Of a stretch of 51,366 nt of DNA, positions 40,715-46,493 are shown piece by piece. The DNA comes from an uncultured Bacteroidota bacterium (GTDB taxonomy: Bacteria; Bacteroidota; Bacteroidia; Chitinophagales; Chitinophagaceae). A program made the translations under genes and the position numbers. Below the pieces are notes generated by a model. It searched no databases. It was given only the letters and a program-made list of their open reading frames with translations, and was not told the DNA's origin. Each line of letters opens with the position of its first letter. Position 1 is the first letter of the stretch. The stretch covers positions 1 through 51,366 of the forward strand of contig CAIVEH010000249.1 of assembly GCA_903904855.1 (NCBI GenBank). The letters are read 5' to 3'.

Positions 40715-40966
40715 TTAATCATAAACATCTTTTTTGTTGCCTGCAGCAAGAATCAGCACCGTGAGCATCCGGTCGTTTATATCATAGATTATTCGATAAT
40801 CACCCTGACGTATCCTATAGCCAACCCTGCCCCTCATCTTTTTACAGCCTGCAGGTCTTGGATTTTGGGCTAAGCCAAGAATACAATTTCTGACTCGCGT
40901 ATAATCAGGCTCAGGAATTTTTTCCAGTTGTTTTTCAACCTGCTTTTCAATAAGCAACCGGTACAT
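40715..40966 (-). CDS. RelE/ParE-family toxin
   Basis: 83 residues. The fold is recognisable from 'MYRLLIEKQVEKQLEKIPEP', 'ILGLAQNPRPAGCKKMRGRVGYRIRQGDYRIIYDINDRMLTVLILAAGNKKDVY'-type blocks, in particular 'YRIRQGDYRIIYDI', the RelE catalytic strand pair. Members cut mRNA in the ribosome A-site. The start ATG shares one base with the stop of the upstream antitoxin gene (TGATG), a normal antitoxin-toxin coupling. The length is typical. Confidence 0.88.
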   Translation of the reverse strand: MYRLLIEKQVEKQLEKIPEPDYTRVRNCILGLAQNPRPAGCKKMRGRVGYRIRQGDYRIIYDINDRMLTVLILAAGNKKDVYD

Positions 40967-41193
40967 CAGTTATGTTTTCGTTTTTGCTCTATCGCTTTAA
41001 ACATATCCTCTGCAGGTACAAACTCCATTTTTCTGGCTTTAACTTTATCATAAGCTTTAATGCAAGCATATTCATCCAGGTCATCCAGCATTTTTTCGTA
41101 ATCTTTTACAGATAGTATGACACCTACTTTTTTACCTCCTGCATCGGTAATAAATTGATTTTTAGTTATCATTTTTTCAATATTATTGCTCAC
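40966..41193 (-). CDS. Phd/RelB-type antitoxin
   Basis: 75 residues: 'MITKNQFITDAGGKKVGVIL', 'SVKDYEKMLDDLDEYACIKAYDKVKARKMEFVPAEDMFKAIEQ'-type helices. The N-terminal part binds DNA as in Phd/YefM, the C-terminal helix caps the toxin. It precedes the toxin gene with a one-base overlap. An internal ATG at residue 8 is an alternative start. Antitoxins of this class repress their own promoter together with the toxin. Confidence 0.82.
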   Translation of the reverse strand: MSNNIEKMITKNQFITDAGGKKVGVILSVKDYEKMLDDLDEYACIKAYDKVKARKMEFVPAEDMFKAIEQKRKHN

Positions 41194-41366: not shown

Positions 41367-42047
41367 ATGAACTGGAAAGATTATTTCAGCACTTCTATAG
41401 GTAAGAAAATTTTGGTAGGCGCTACAGGTTTATTTCTTATTATTTTTCTGGTAGTTCATTGCTATGTAAATGCAATGATTTTCTGGCCCGATAATGGCAA
41501 ACATTTTACCGATGCTGCGGCATTTATGGGAGGTAATCCTGCCATCAGGATAGTGGAAATCGGACTCTTTGCTGGATTCGCTGTGCATATCATCATGAGT
41601 CTGATGCTGTGGAGCCAGAATGCAAAACGCCGGACAGTAGGTTATGAAGTAAAAGCCGGAAACAAAACCAGTAAATGGTATAGCCGCTCAATGGGGCTGC
41701 TGGGTACCTTGATACTGATGTTCCTGATATTGCACCTTTATCATTTCTGGGCACCAAACCGCTATGGGCAGTTTTTTGACCCGACCTGGACTGAGGGTGG
41801 ATTGTATAAAAACATGCTGATTACCTTTTACCCGCCATGGGTTGTTGCAGTATATCTGTTGGGTTGCTTCTCGCTTGCATGGCATCTGATGCATGGCGTT
41901 AAAAGCAGTATGCAAACATTCGGACTGGCTACACACCGTTATAAAGGCTTTATCAGCTCGGTAGGCGCTGCATTTGCAATTATTATACCTCTGCTGTTTG
42001 CGACCATGCCATTATATCTTCATTTCCTTGGCCATATGGCCAGGTAA
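41367..42047 (+). CDS. sdhC: Succinate dehydrogenase cytochrome b subunit
   Basis: 226 residues with five membrane helices, the single-subunit (type B) diheme anchor found in Bacteroidota and epsilonproteobacteria. Helix segments include 'KKILVGATGLFLIIFLVVHCYVNAMIF', 'FAVHIIMSLMLW', 'LLGTLILMFLILHLYHFW', 'WVVAVYLLGCFSLAWHLMHGVKSSMQT' and 'AIIIPLLFATMPLYLHFL'. The histidines within them (HC, VH, LH/YH, WH, MH) supply heme ligands and the quinone site. It opens the operon 77 bases upstream of sdhA. Confidence 0.93.
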   Translation: MNWKDYFSTSIGKKILVGATGLFLIIFLVVHCYVNAMIFWPDNGKHFTDAAAFMGGNPAIRIVEIGLFAGFAVHIIMSLMLWSQNAKRRTVGYEVKAGNKTSKWYSRSMGLLGTLILMFLILHLYHFWAPNRYGQFFDPTWTEGGLYKNMLITFYPPWVVAVYLLGCFSLAWHLMHGVKSSMQTFGLATHRYKGFISSVGAAFAIIIPLLFATMPLYLHFLGHMAR

Positions 42048-42123: not shown

Positions 42124-44100
42124 ATGGCACTTAATTCTAAAATACCTGCAGGACCGATAGCCGAAAAATGGAAGACATATAAATCGACCTGCAAACTGGT
42201 TAACCCTGCCAATAAACGCCAGCTAGAGATAATAGTAGTAGGCACCGGTCTTGCCGGCGCTTCTGCGGCAGCATCGCTTGGCGAAATGGGTTATAAAGTT
42301 AAAGCATTCTGTTTTCAGGACAGCCCACGCCGCGCGCATTCCATTGCCGCGCAGGGGGGGATAAATGCAGCTAAGAATTACCAGAATGACGGAGACAGCA
42401 CTTACCGCCTTTTTTATGATACCATAAAGGGTGGCGACTACCGTGCACGTGAAGGTAATGTACATCGCCTGGCAGAGGTGAGCGCTAATATTATAGATCA
42501 GTGCGTGGCACAGGGGGTTCCTTTTGCCCGTGAATATGGAGGCTTGCTGAGCAACCGTTCGTTTGGTGGTACACAGGTGCAGCGTACTTTTTATGCTGCA
42601 GGACAGACAGGGCAGCAGTTGCTTATTGGCGCTTACCAGGGGCTTGAAAGGCAGATATCGTTGGGTACTGTGACTATGTACAACCGCCACGAGATGCTGG
42701 AAGTGGTGAAAATTGATGGCAAAGCACGTGGTATTATAGCCCGTGATCTGGTAACAGGGGAGTTGGAGCGTCATTTCGGTCATGCCGTTTTGTTGTGTAC
42801 TGGTGGCTATGGTAATGTGTTTTACTTATCGACCAATGCGATGGGCAGTAATGCCACCGCAGTATGGAAGGCTCATAAGCAAGGCGCTTATTTTGGCAAT
42901 CCATGCTTTACCCAGATTCACCCAACATGTATTCCTGTAAGCGGTGACCACCAATCGAAACTGACATTGATGTCGGAATCACTGAGAAATGATGGTCGGA
43001 TCTGGGTGCCTAAAAAACAAAATGATACCCGTAAAGCATCGGATATACCAGAAGATGAGCGTGATTACTACCTGGAAAGAAGGTATCCTGCTTTTGGTAA
43101 CCTGGTTCCACGAGATGTGGCCAGCCGTGCAGCTAAAGAGCGTTGCGATGCAGGCTATGGCGTAGGGTCATCGAAAATGGCAGTATACCTCGATTTTGCA
43201 TCAGCTATAGATCGTTATGGCCATGTGGAAGCTCACAAAAATGGTAATCCGACTGCAGATAAAGCAACTATTTATGCATTGGGAAAAGATGTTGTGAAAG
43301 AAAAATACGGCAACCTTTTCGAGATGTATGAAAAGATAACCGGCGAGAACCCATACGAAATACCGATGAGGATATATCCGGCTGTACACTATACAATGGG
43401 AGGCCTTTGGGTTGATTATGAACTAATGACAAATATACCCGGTCTGTACGCACTGGGTGAAGCTAACTTCAGCGACCATGGCGCTAACCGTCTCGGTGCA
43501 TCAGCATTGATGCAGGGGCTTGCTGATGGGTATTTTGTGATACCTTATACTCTGGGTAACAACCTCGCTGATGATATTCGCACTAAATCTATACCAACCG
43601 ACCATCCGGCATTTGTAGCTGCTGAAAAAGAAGTTAGTGATAGGATCAACAAGCTGATGGGCATTAAGGGTAAGCAGAGTGTAGAAAGTTTCCACAAACG
43701 CCTGGGTAAAATAATGTGGGAAAAGTGCGGAATGGGTCGTACTGCAAAGGGACTAACAGAAGCTATTGAAGAAATTAAGGCTTTACGTAAAGAATTCTGG
43801 AGTAATGTGTTTATACCCGGGGAAATCAAAGAATTCAATACCGAACTGGATAAAGCTGGGCGTGTTGCTGACTTCCTTGAGCTTGGCGAACTGATGTGTA
43901 TGGATGCACTGAACCGCAAGGAAAGCTGCGGCGGCCATTTCCGTGAAGAGTCGCAAACTGAAGAAGGAGAAGCATTGAGGGACGATGAAAACTTTATGTA
44001 TGTAGCGGCATGGGAATTTAAGGGTGAGAGTAAGTTTGAAATGCACAAAGAGGATCTGGTTTACGAAGTTGTTCATCCTAGTGCTAGGAGCTACAAATAA
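42124..44100 (+). CDS. sdhA: Succinate dehydrogenase flavoprotein subunit
   Basis: 658 residues. It oxidises succinate to fumarate at a covalent FAD. Motifs include '[24 protein letters not shown]' (FAD-binding Rossmann loop), '[24 protein letters not shown]' (His for covalent FAD), '[20 protein letters not shown]'-type active-site segment, '[13 protein letters not shown]' and '[32 protein letters not shown]'. The length and motif spelling are of the Bacteroidota/epsilon fumarate reductase-like type. In this operon it should be followed by sdhB, but two unrelated genes intervene. Confidence 0.95.
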
Positions 44101-44116
44101 AATTTAATCAAAGAGA

Positions 44117-45223
44117 TTGTCTGAAAAGCTAATTGTAAAGAATTTCGGCCCGATTAAACACGTTGAACTTGACATTAAAAAGGTAAATGTTTTAATTGGT
44201 GAACAAGGCACTGGGAAAAGTGCCTTGGTTAGGCTTTTACATTTATTTCATAATCAATCATTTTTATTTGAAGACCCATATAAGTTTTTGGATATTTTTG
44301 ATTTTCCTTTTAAGAAAAATACAATTTTAGAATATCATTCTGAAAATTATTTTATTTCCTACAATGAAGGCAAATTCAACATTAGATATAAAGGACAACA
44401 CCTTGAAATTTTGGAAAAAATTTTAGTTTTAAGTAATAAATACCTTCTTGAACATGATTTTAAAGTTGAAAATGAATATAATTCCTTAAATGATTGGTAT
44501 TTAAATAACATTGGATTAAGTGTTTATATCCCAGCTGAAAGAATAATTCTTCCTATAATATATAAAATCCCGCGAATACCAAACGCTCCATACATTGATT
44601 ATTTAGGCATAACTTATAATCAGGCACGATACAAAATTAAAGAGTTGGATATTCCATATCTTAATCAAGTTAAGTATAAATTAGAAGGTGATGATGATAA
44701 AATAGTCTTAAATAATGAAACAATATTTCTTCATCAGACATCCAGTGGTTTTCAGGCATCCATTCCTTTGGCTATTATCGTTGAATCTTTTACAAGTCGT
44801 AAGGAAAGGTTCAGATTTATTATTGAAGAGCCGGAACTAAACTTATTCCCTGCTACACAGAATGAATTGATGAAGTATTTGATTGAAAAAACTAGTCAAG
44901 AGAAGAATGGATTGTTTTTAGCTACTCATAGCCCTTACATACTTACATCCATTAACAACATGATTTTTGCCGAGCAGGTAGGAAAATTGGATCATGAAAA
45001 GACAGCAGGTATAATTGAAGAAAAATATTGGCTGAATTCAAATGATGTCTCCGCCTACCTGTTGAGGTATGATGAAGAAGCAGGAGGGATCATTCAGGAG
45101 AATATAATGGACGATGAAGTGCAGCAAATAAAGGCAGAAAAGATTGATGAAATATCGCGGCAATTTAACAGGGAATATGATGAAATGCTTGACATAAAAT
45201 ATCCGGTAAGTAATGAAGGATAG
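44117..45223 (+). CDS. AAA/ABC-type ATPase of the OLD/RecF-like class, inserted in the sdh operon
   Basis: 368 residues. Walker A is 'GEQGTGKS' (28-35) after 'LIVKNFGPIKHVELDIKKVNVLI'. The family motif 'YIPAER' follows at 137-142. The ABC signature-like 'SSGFQ' is at 209-213, Walker B 'FIIEEPELNLFP' at 234-245, and the switch histidine lies in 'ATHSPYILTSINN' (269-281). This is the AAA_15/AAA_21 group, the ATPase half of many anti-phage systems. There is no TOPRIM domain, unlike true OLD proteins; the C-terminal 80 residues are helical and charged. It starts with TTG 16 bases after sdhA and overlaps the next gene by 11 bases. Base composition is far more AT-rich than sdhA: 44281-44340 has 11 G or C of 60, against 32 of 60 in 43081-43140. 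This marks it as acquired. Confidence 0.85.
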   Translation: MSEKLIVKNFGPIKHVELDIKKVNVLIGEQGTGKSALVRLLHLFHNQSFLFEDPYKFLDIFDFPFKKNTILEYHSENYFISYNEGKFNIRYKGQHLEILEKILVLSNKYLLEHDFKVENEYNSLNDWYLNNIGLSVYIPAERIILPIIYKIPRIPNAPYIDYLGITYNQARYKIKELDIPYLNQVKYKLEGDDDKIVLNNETIFLHQTSSGFQASIPLAIIVESFTSRKERFRFIIEEPELNLFPATQNELMKYLIEKTSQEKNGLFLATHSPYILTSINNMIFAEQVGKLDHEKTAGIIEEKYWLNSNDVSAYLLRYDEEAGGIIQENIMDDEVQQIKAEKIDEISRQFNREYDEMLDIKYPVSNEG

Positions 45224-45647
45224 ACTTAAGGGCTGCGAAAAATACAGAGATAACCGTTCTAACCCTTCAGTAACTGAAAAAGGAAAAACTTTTCAGTTAG
45301 ACAATAAAAGCAGATTAGAAGTAGGTTGTATAAGAATTGATGATTGTGTTTTTAAAGGGAGAGATGGTATTAAATGTGATTTTTTATTTGAGGTGGAATC
45401 AAAGAGAAAATTATTTTATGTTGAGCTAAAAGGGTCAGATATTTTAAAAGCTATAAGCCAGATATATGAAACGCTGAAACAAACAAAATCAGTTTATCCG
45501 GGTTGGGTTTATGAAGCAAGGGTAATTGCAAGCGGAAAAATTCCGCCGCAAATATCAGACAGAAGGGAGTTTGAAAATTTAAGGCGTATTTGCAATGGTG
45601 GGAAATTAACGATCCACCACAAAAATTTATATATAGAACCATTATAA
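45213..45647 (+). CDS. Small PD-(D/E)XK nuclease-like partner of the ATPase
   Basis: 144 residues. The central part has a restriction-nuclease-like core: 'CDFLFEVESKRKLFYVELKG' gives Asp56 and, on the next strand, Glu71-Leu-Lys73 (ExK), followed by a helix with Gln83 ('DILKAISQIYETL'). That order (D, then ExK, then helix Q) is the PD-(D/E)XK pattern seen in Holliday-junction-resolvase-like and VRR-NUC enzymes. The N-terminus has two cysteines (C8, C39) and basic residues; the C-terminal helix (about 118-130) is charged. It overlaps the ATPase by 11 bases, so the two are translationally coupled and probably form one complex. It lies nine bases before sdhB. The nuclease call rests on motif and spacing only. 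Confidence 0.65.
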   Translation: MKDRLKGCEKYRDNRSNPSVTEKGKTFQLDNKSRLEVGCIRIDDCVFKGRDGIKCDFLFEVESKRKLFYVELKGSDILKAISQIYETLKQTKSVYPGWVYEARVIASGKIPPQISDRREFENLRRICNGGKLTIHHKNLYIEPL

Positions 45648-45656
45648 AGGGACAAT

Positions 45657-46427
45657 ATGCAACACTACAATATGAATCTCACTCTCAAGGTGTGGAAACA
45701 AAAAAACTGCAAAGAGAAGGGCAAATTTGAAACCTATCCGGTTTCTAATATTTCATCTGAGATGTCTTTTCTGGAGATGTTTGATGTGCTCAATGAACGC
45801 CTGGTAGCAGAGGGCAAGGAGCCAATTGCTTTCGATCACGATTGCCGTGAGGGGATCTGTGGTATGTGCAGTATGTACATTAATGGCCGTCCCCACGGTC
45901 CTTGGCATCAGACCACTACCTGCCAGCTCCATATGCGCGAGTATAAGGATGGCGATACTATTGTGGTTGAGCCATGGCGCGCTAATTCATTCCCGGTTAT
46001 TAAAGATCTGGTGGTCGACCGTACTGCCTTCGACCGCATTATAGCTGCCGGCGGCTACATTTCAGTAAATACAGGTAATGCTGTTGATGCCAATTCATTG
46101 CCTATTGAGAAGCAAAAAGCTGATGAATCATTTGCTGCAGCAAGTTGTATTGGTTGCGGTGCCTGTGTGGCAGCTTGCCCTAACGCTTCTGCAATGTTGT
46201 TTGTTTCGGCAAAAGTTTCTCATCTGGCATTATTGCCACAAGGCGACCCGGAGCGTAAGGTTAGGGCTGTAAATATGGTGAAACAAATGGATACCGAAGG
46301 TTTCGGCAGCTGTACCAATATTGGTGCTTGCGAGGCTGAATGCCCTAAAGGAATTTCGCTTGAAAATATTGCACGCCTGAATCGCGAATATATCGGAGCA
46401 GTTTTTTCCGGCAGTATTGAAGGTTAA
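45657..46427 (+). CDS. sdhB: Succinate dehydrogenase iron-sulfur subunit
   Basis: 256 residues. It relays electrons from the flavin to the quinone through three clusters. Cluster motifs: '[19 protein letters not shown]' with 'TTCQLH' ([2Fe-2S]), '[13 protein letters not shown]' and '[15 protein letters not shown]' ([4Fe-4S] and [3Fe-4S]). The ATG at 45657 gives [13 protein letters not shown]; a second ATG at 45672 (MNLTLKVW) is equally possible. In most genomes sdhB directly follows sdhA. Here it sits after the ATPase-nuclease pair, nine bases from the nuclease stop, and a terminator closes the operon. Confidence 0.95.
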
Positions 46428-46451
46428 ATATAACTCCTTATTATTTTTTTT

Positions 46452-46480
46452 GAAAGGCTGTCTTATTCAGATAGCCTTTC
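46452..46480 (+). terminator. Terminator of the sdh operon
   Basis: A 12-bp stem with one G-T pair (46452-46463 with 46469-46480) around TATTC, followed by GTTATTTTG. It lies 24 bases after the sdhB stop and 14 before the next ATG. The T-tract is only moderate, so read-through is possible. Confidence 0.75.
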
Positions 46481-46493
46481 GTTATTTTGTAGC

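Follow-up and report, generated by a model that had tools for sequence, protein, structure and literature searches.

The sdh operon and the two genes within it

What are two genes unrelated to respiration doing inside a succinate dehydrogenase operon? The question is raised by a 51,366-nt contig of an uncultured Bacteroidota bacterium of the family Chitinophagaceae (assembly GCA_903904855.1, contig CAIVEH010000249.1), hereafter the window, in which two genes, here called X and Y, lie between sdhA and sdhB. The first-pass annotation, made by a model from the sequence alone, had taken them for a defence-like ATPase-nuclease pair wired to central respiration, and matches of both proteins to the candidate PDC-M29 support a pair from a defence-candidate family. 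We read X-Y as a site-locked, PDC-M29-type ATPase-nuclease module with a probable anti-phage role, whose proposed sensor is exchangeable and whose transcription probably comes from a housekeeping operon, and put the probability of this reading at roughly 0.7. The first-pass interpretation is partly supported, right in kind and too narrow.

In the open reading frame (ORF) list, the order is sdhC-sdhA-X-Y-sdhB, with all five genes on the + strand. The operon begins with sdhC (membrane subunit; 41367-42047), called from the ORF list with a weak Pfam match to Sdh_cyt (E = 0.017, below the cut-off). The dock gene is sdhA (flavoprotein subunit; 42124-44100; FAD_binding_2 1.1e-51, Succ_DH_flav_C 1.9e-38), followed after a 16-nt spacer (44101-44116) by X (44117-45223; 368 amino acids (aa)) and Y (45213-45647; 144 aa), which overlap by 11 nt. 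After a further 9 nt comes sdhB (iron-sulphur subunit; 45657-46427; Fer2_3 2.7e-25). These gaps, the overlap and the shared direction agree exactly with the first-pass annotation. The arrangement is not a chance one, because it is common to 25 loci.

X-Y is likely read from the sdh promoter. The sdhA-X spacer has no room for a promoter of its own; it is also too short for a terminator. No terminator-like site was found on the + strand between sdhA and sdhB, in a region where the overall count of such sites was no more than in shuffled sequence (4 found, 5.0 expected). A terminator-like hairpin with a 13-pair stem and a T-rich tail (46451-46481, + strand) stands just 3' of sdhB and is the likely end of the operon. 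X and Y are probably co-transcribed with the sdh genes.

The ATPase, the small partner and known defence systems

X is an OLD/PtuA-type ABC ATPase belonging to the Pfam families AAA_15/AAA_21. Its top PADLOC match is PDC-M29A (2.5e-34), a profile that also matches all 40 of 40 aligned X homologues (E<=1e-10). We take G28-S35 to be the Walker A motif, S210-Q213 a signature-like motif and E237/E238 Walker B, with H271 as a further motif residue; all of these are conserved columns in the homologue alignment. An AlphaFold2 model of X (mean predicted local distance difference test score, pLDDT, 87.3) matches PtuA in Foldseek (1.3e-11, template modelling score 0.50), and a profile match to PtuA 8ee4 was obtained at 4.9e-9.

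Y, encoded next to X, likewise has the partner profile PDC-M29B as its top PADLOC match, weakly in the window (1.4e-4), and 36 of 44 aligned Y homologues match it at E<=0.01. Across these 44 rows, D43, D56 and E71 are invariant and C8, C55, L72, K73, G74, Q83 and P111 nearly so, with no histidine among either class of column. D56 and E71, with K73 (present in >=90% of rows), form a D...ExK motif (D56...E71-x-K73), which points to a predicted nuclease of the PD-(D/E)XK type. The AlphaFold2 model of Y (pLDDT 93.4) gave middling matches in VIA-align with nucleases ranked first. Other searches with Y returned little: no Pfam family at E<=1; nothing in Foldseek at E<=0.001, the top rows being APOBEC3G and clamp-loader chains; and among solved structures only two sequence matches with E of about 3, which we judge to be chance.

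Several characterized systems share parts of this layout. In Septu, as in X-Y, a PtuA-type ABC ATPase fold goes with a separate small nuclease-like partner. Septu is reported to depend on both its Walker and its nuclease motifs and to cut tRNA-Tyr, with PtuB being an HNH nuclease (PMC13096335); Y, in contrast, has D..ExK without a conserved histidine and does not fit the HNH pattern. The same paper describes OLD as having its nuclease domain fused to the ATPase (PMC13096335). In sequence and in fold, X resembles the ATPase half of OLD and of Gabija GajA, whereas its 368 aa include no fused nuclease domain. In GajA, too, nuclease domain and ATPase are fused. AriA profiles of PARIS match X (1.4e-24) and 40 of 40 homologues. 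The PARIS partner AriB is a Toprim/DUF4435 protein; no AriB profile matched Y at E<=1, nor did any Pfam family, although by the fold lists Y may still be AriB-like. The closest relation is PDC-M29, the best PADLOC match of each of the two adjacent window proteins and a match of most homologues too. Candidates of this kind are described as largely untested (PMC12988326). The literature we searched holds no description of sdh docking or of a variable block for PDC-M29, and the open-licence PubMed Central literature, searched by title and start of abstract, holds none of an arrangement of this kind between sdhA and sdhB.

One clade holds the slot

Carriers were drawn from a genome scan (71 loci) and from a survey of 396 genomes of the order, of which 28 gave a Y match, 5 of them beside sdhB. 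Removal of duplicates left 22 distinct sdh-located pairs, with the sdhA side of two of them (L120 and L123; L, G and C numbers are our labels for loci, genomes and contigs) confirmed. With L107, L150 and L177, the pair stands behind sdhA at 25 distinct loci, and sdhB is seen in 24, the contig of L107 ending inside X. Where they can be placed, the carriers are Bacteroidota, namely Chitinophagales and four metagenome-assembled genomes (MAGs) labelled Flavobacteriaceae; several others are labelled merely Bacteroidetes or uncultured bacterium. Most carriers come from metagenome assemblies. One label, Beijerinckiaceae (L055/L169), is probably wrong: a transfer across phyla was considered and rejected, as the X-Y is the same as that of G511, a genome assigned to the family of the window.

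The 22 sdh-located X proteins form one clade in a 97-row tree (Shimodaira-Hasegawa-like approximate likelihood ratio test 95), which omits L106, L114, L116, L117 and X sequences shorter than 280 aa (including L107), and again in a more careful 38-row tree (96/95); L150 and L177, which came to light afterwards, are part of neither. In the 22 pairs, Y begins -17 to +4 nt from the end of X (measured to whichever Y start lies closest to the X stop), and sdhB begins -19 to 30 nt after Y in 21 of them and 91 nt after it once. X follows sdhA by 4-121 nt in 18 pairs, by some hundreds in L120 and L123, and by about 936 in L049 and L051, where an extra secreted-type gene precedes X. In L177, a glycosyltransferase-like gene follows Y.

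We compared trees for a conflict that would prove that X-Y moves from species to species at the slot, and did not obtain such proof. X alone splits seven rows that are one clade by sdhA+sdhB, at an approximately unbiased test p of 0.084; X+Y or Y alone gave no rejection in any of four variants, with the seven rows forming one clade, weakly, in two. Neither viruses nor plasmids pointed to a source: a scan of viral_contigs, with phage records outside the search, gave one weak relative covering residues 1-42, and a plasmid search with Y only gave nothing at E<=0.01.

A patchy occupant of an apparently tolerant junction

The first-pass annotation had proposed comparing the junction among relatives, and the empty sites and other cargo that it expected were both found. 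In the window's genus, the junction was readable in 27 of 35 genomes. X-Y occupies it in five (the window, G001, G031, G027 and G030), Y stands without X in one, as if X had been lost (G003, L026), an IVP-like ORF lies there in four and another gene in one; the remaining 16 junctions are shorter than 200 nt. At the family level, the search covered 147 genomes; the junction was resolved in 122 of them and left unresolved in 25. Resolution came from a continuous match (23), two visible matches (14), fetched DNA (72), a joined open frame, from which the junction was inferred (9), or other parts of the analysis (4). Of these junctions, 88 are shorter than 200 nt and 34 are at least 200 nt, seven of the latter holding X-Y. 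The first-pass annotation had held its reading to fail if most relatives carried the pair with matching composition; the pair proves to be a minority, patchy occupant. A single, clean and recent insertion read from composition was not supported, given the pair's presence at the slot in 5/27 genus genomes, 7/122 family genomes and the four Flavobacteriaceae-labelled MAGs. By eye, the slot spacers showed no common sequence readable as a target duplication, though no dedicated search for one was made.

These counts bear on an unlikely but not negligible alternative, in which the junction merely tolerates inserts, X-Y is one passenger among many and its position means nothing for its function. X-Y accounts for only 7 of the 34 large family junctions, and IVP-like ORFs and other genes are common there: 30 fetched large junctions held X-Y (4), an IVP-like ORF (at least 15, by eye), other genes (7) or no clear ORF (4). 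Tolerance also seems specific to the sdhA-sdhB junction, because among 60 fetched loci a gap of at least 200 nt separates sdhC and sdhA in only 5, against 20 for sdhA and sdhB, in a set biased towards large sdhA-sdhB gaps for which 34/122 is the fairer rate. Random passengers, however, would be expected to include many X-Y lineages, whereas the slot holds one clade, and other X-Y clades sit elsewhere, several of them behind other core genes. This favours a site-locked module.

Other cargo of the slot deserves mention in its own right. Proteins resembling the four-helix 23S-rRNA-IVP are the commonest (L018, L030, L031 and L032, and roughly half the large junctions within L149-L197); Pfam was run on five slot cargo proteins, and 23S_rRNA_IVP was confirmed in both IVP-like proteins tested. 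In L170 (G435), the cargo is another protein of the PD-(D/E)XK family, PDDEXK_3. Several empty junctions show, by eye, similar short AT-rich repeats.

Base composition and start codons

G+C content in the window is about 0.45 in sdhA and drops to 0.25-0.36 over X-Y, and the G/C counts of the first-pass annotation were exact on recount (11/60 at 44281-44340, 32/60 at 43081-43140). Its further step took AT-richness as a sign of horizontal gain; in all 22 carriers measured (two with only sdhB at hand), however, X and Y have a lower G+C content than the adjoining sdhA/sdhB, which makes it a standing property. Low G+C cannot date the gain because it is constant across carriers, and a recent one-off acquisition read from composition was rejected.

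The start codon of X also differs at the slot. In the window, TTG is the sole possible start among ATG, GTG and TTG: an in-frame stop begins 12 nt before it, and there is no in-frame ATG ahead of the P-loop. Of the 22 sdh-slot pairs, 14 have TTG or GTG at the start of X, seven have ATG and one has no clear codon, compared with TTG/GTG in 3/78 elsewhere (Fisher 4e-9, uncorrected for kinship). At least four changes of start-codon type are needed on the tree. Among further slot loci, L150 has TTG and L177 and L107 have ATG. The pattern suggests that TTG/GTG starts damp the translation of X within a strong operon.

Block-wise differences in the middle of X

Between the window X and its two nearest sdh-slot relatives, identity is 0.29-0.47 in the middle and 0.42-0.79 after residue 180. 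This hypervariable middle, at about residues 46-200 (44252-44716, + strand; bounds approximate, from the relatives' identity profile), is our candidate for the sensor.

Two close pairs of loci show the difference most sharply. L049 and L051 share 43% aa identity (0.578 at the nt level) over X residues 46-165, and 100% and 92% aa identity on either side of this block. Their sdhA and sdhB genes are 0.93 identical in nt and differ at only 0.27 of fourfold degenerate sites, too low a divergence for the block to be explained by neutral drift. The second pair, L139 and L140, lies outside sdh; over some 420 nt of X its nt identity is 0.40-0.68, against 0.97-1.00 in X on both sides of this block and 0.85-1.00 further downstream. 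In both of these PDC-M29-type pairs, the middle of X looks to have been replaced as a block. Most of 13 other close pairs dip in the middle of X to a varying degree; the exceptions are L142/L143 (no dip), L073/L080 (slight) and L052/L064 (lowest at the C-terminus).

L049 is moreover a mosaic, with an X middle of one type and an X C-terminus plus Y of the window type, which may explain part of the conflict in the X tree. The Y genes of L049 and L051 differ at 1/36 fourfold sites, against 98/364 in sdhA+sdhB (Fisher p 4e-4), consistent with a recent exchange of Y. Judged from these alignments, recombination within the docked module would swap a block of X.

Other docks in the same and in second families

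Outside sdh, the upstream gene is visible at 57 of 76 X loci; it is co-directional and within 250 nt in 43, and on the opposite strand or more distant in 14. Pfam was run on 19 upstream proteins. The first ten, picked for looking core, are GAPDH (3), aconitase (2), Hsp70, a class-II tRNA synthetase (lysyl type by eye), MTHFR, a biotin/lipoate ligase type and a MutS2 type. The next nine comprise four that are arguably core (complex I 30 kDa, cyclophilin, IspD and an M24 peptidase) and five that are not (an AraC regulator, UPF0014, an amine oxidase, a TMEM260-like protein and a protein that Pfam assigned to no family). Of 11 pairs in Flavobacterium, 8 stand behind dnaK (L067, L072, L073, L076, L077, L079, L080 and L082; by identical start, one Pfam-confirmed) and three are otherwise placed (L065, L074 and L081). 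Related ATPases lie directly behind GAPDH in L010, L012 and L113; two of these loci belong to the genus of the window and the third to a different phylum. Docks thus recur within clades, with exceptions; these are raw counts.

A sister family, PDC-M31, behaves alike. The window genome has PDC-M31A-type ATPases with small partners 141 nt behind aconitase and 128 nt behind citrate synthase (L277 and L278; G000:C214 and G000:C51); the citrate synthase dock recurs in G028, G008 and G020 and the aconitase dock in G008. The upstream side is visible at 10 of 13 PDC-M31-type loci, own genome included: citrate synthase in four, aconitase in two, a RecJ-like gene (by eye) in two and neither in two, namely L290 and L291, the latter despite having the ATPase closest to the aconitase-docked one. 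As in X-Y, an ATPase with, in the pairs compared, conserved ends and a variable middle goes with a small partner behind core genes, whereas the partner and the docks (citrate synthase, aconitase or a RecJ-like gene) differ. Behind citrate synthase the partner matches PDC-M31B. The partner behind aconitase has no PADLOC match at 1e-8 and is 33-34% identical to its citrate-synthase counterpart.

AAA_15 ATPases were tried as a control, using the best 20 loci of a longer list, in 18 of which the ATPase was identified. They were rejected as a null for core-gene docking, since 5 of the 18 are themselves core-docked, behind aconitase, citrate synthase, a ComM-like gene, RecQ (Pfam) and PurL (by eye). 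Docking is not special to PDC-M29, because these controls stand behind core genes as well. The window genome has HEC-01-type ATPase/DUF4276 pairs behind the ComM-like gene (L281, G000:C121) and RecQ (L282, G000:C260).

How far X-Y is wired to respiration can now be answered in part: it does sit in the sdh operon, but its relatives also dock behind dnaK, GAPDH and aconitase, and the sister family behind citrate synthase and aconitase. We consider it improbable that X-Y is functionally tied to succinate dehydrogenase or the tricarboxylic acid (TCA) cycle, guarding central metabolism or sensing its state. The window genome does hold three ATPases from two candidate families directly behind sdhA, aconitase and citrate synthase, and a rough Poisson estimate for at least 2 of 9 gives 3e-4 on an assumed ~5000 genes, 13 TCA genes and 10 ATPases, a rough guide given that the category was named after sdhA had been seen. 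The same families also stand behind dnaK, GAPDH, MTHFR and RecJ-like genes, however, so strong, steady expression is the simpler common factor, and in most relatives X-Y is missing and sdhA adjoins sdhB.

More generally, and at slightly below even odds, we propose that for several Bacteroidota ATPase-nuclease defence families, strongly expressed core genes, conspicuously those of the TCA cycle (sdhA, aconitase, citrate synthase), serve as heritable docks at their 3' ends. Each clade would largely keep its dock for long, borrow transcription, damp translation inside operons and exchange only its sensor block. Defence systems are usually sought in islands, prophages and mobile elements. If the proposal is true, a dispersed "defence parking" exists that is distinct from defence islands and prophage hotspots, island-based searches may miss one class of defences, and the flanks of core genes are a cheap place to search. 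The variable block would then mark the trigger-sensing part of OLD/PtuA-like ATPases, which becomes testable.

A possible mode of action

For the module in the window, we envisage that X most likely senses a product of infection through its hypervariable middle. An ATP-driven change in X would then release or activate Y, and Y, as a PD-(D/E)XK-type nuclease, would cut DNA or RNA and so halt the infection. The X-Y overlap may couple translation of the two proteins, and the TTG/GTG start probably lowers the dose of X at the sdh slot. The module probably persists or spreads at the slot by homologous recombination in the conserved flanks, while recombination inside X would exchange the sensor segment. 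We think it very doubtful that X-Y is instead a selfish homing element in which Y, with X, cuts unoccupied junctions and repair copies the module in, as with free-standing homing nucleases, defence being secondary or absent: a PD-(D/E)XK-like Y, the slot fidelity of the sdh clade, its patchy presence among close relatives and the near-identical Y of L049 and L051 amid older flanks are what such an element would give, but Y is small (144 aa) with no added DNA-recognition domain seen, the variable block of X is easier to square with sensing in an arms race than with a conserved site to be recognized, and empty slots persist in 16/27 genomes of the genus.

Further features of the window and its genome

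Promoter motifs were uninformative: one of the Bacteroidota type lies inside X at 44267, in a window with 3 against 3.0 expected, and sigma-70-type motifs numbered 17 against 17.9 expected. Elsewhere in the genome, an ATPase with a partner that appears HNH-like by eye, and so Septu-like, lies between two genes resembling Fe-S oxidoreductase subunits by eye (L280:2728-4918; G000:C167). In the window, 5' of sdhC on the - strand (40715-41193), two adjoining small ORFs presumably form a pair resembling RelE/RelB-type toxin-antitoxin genes.
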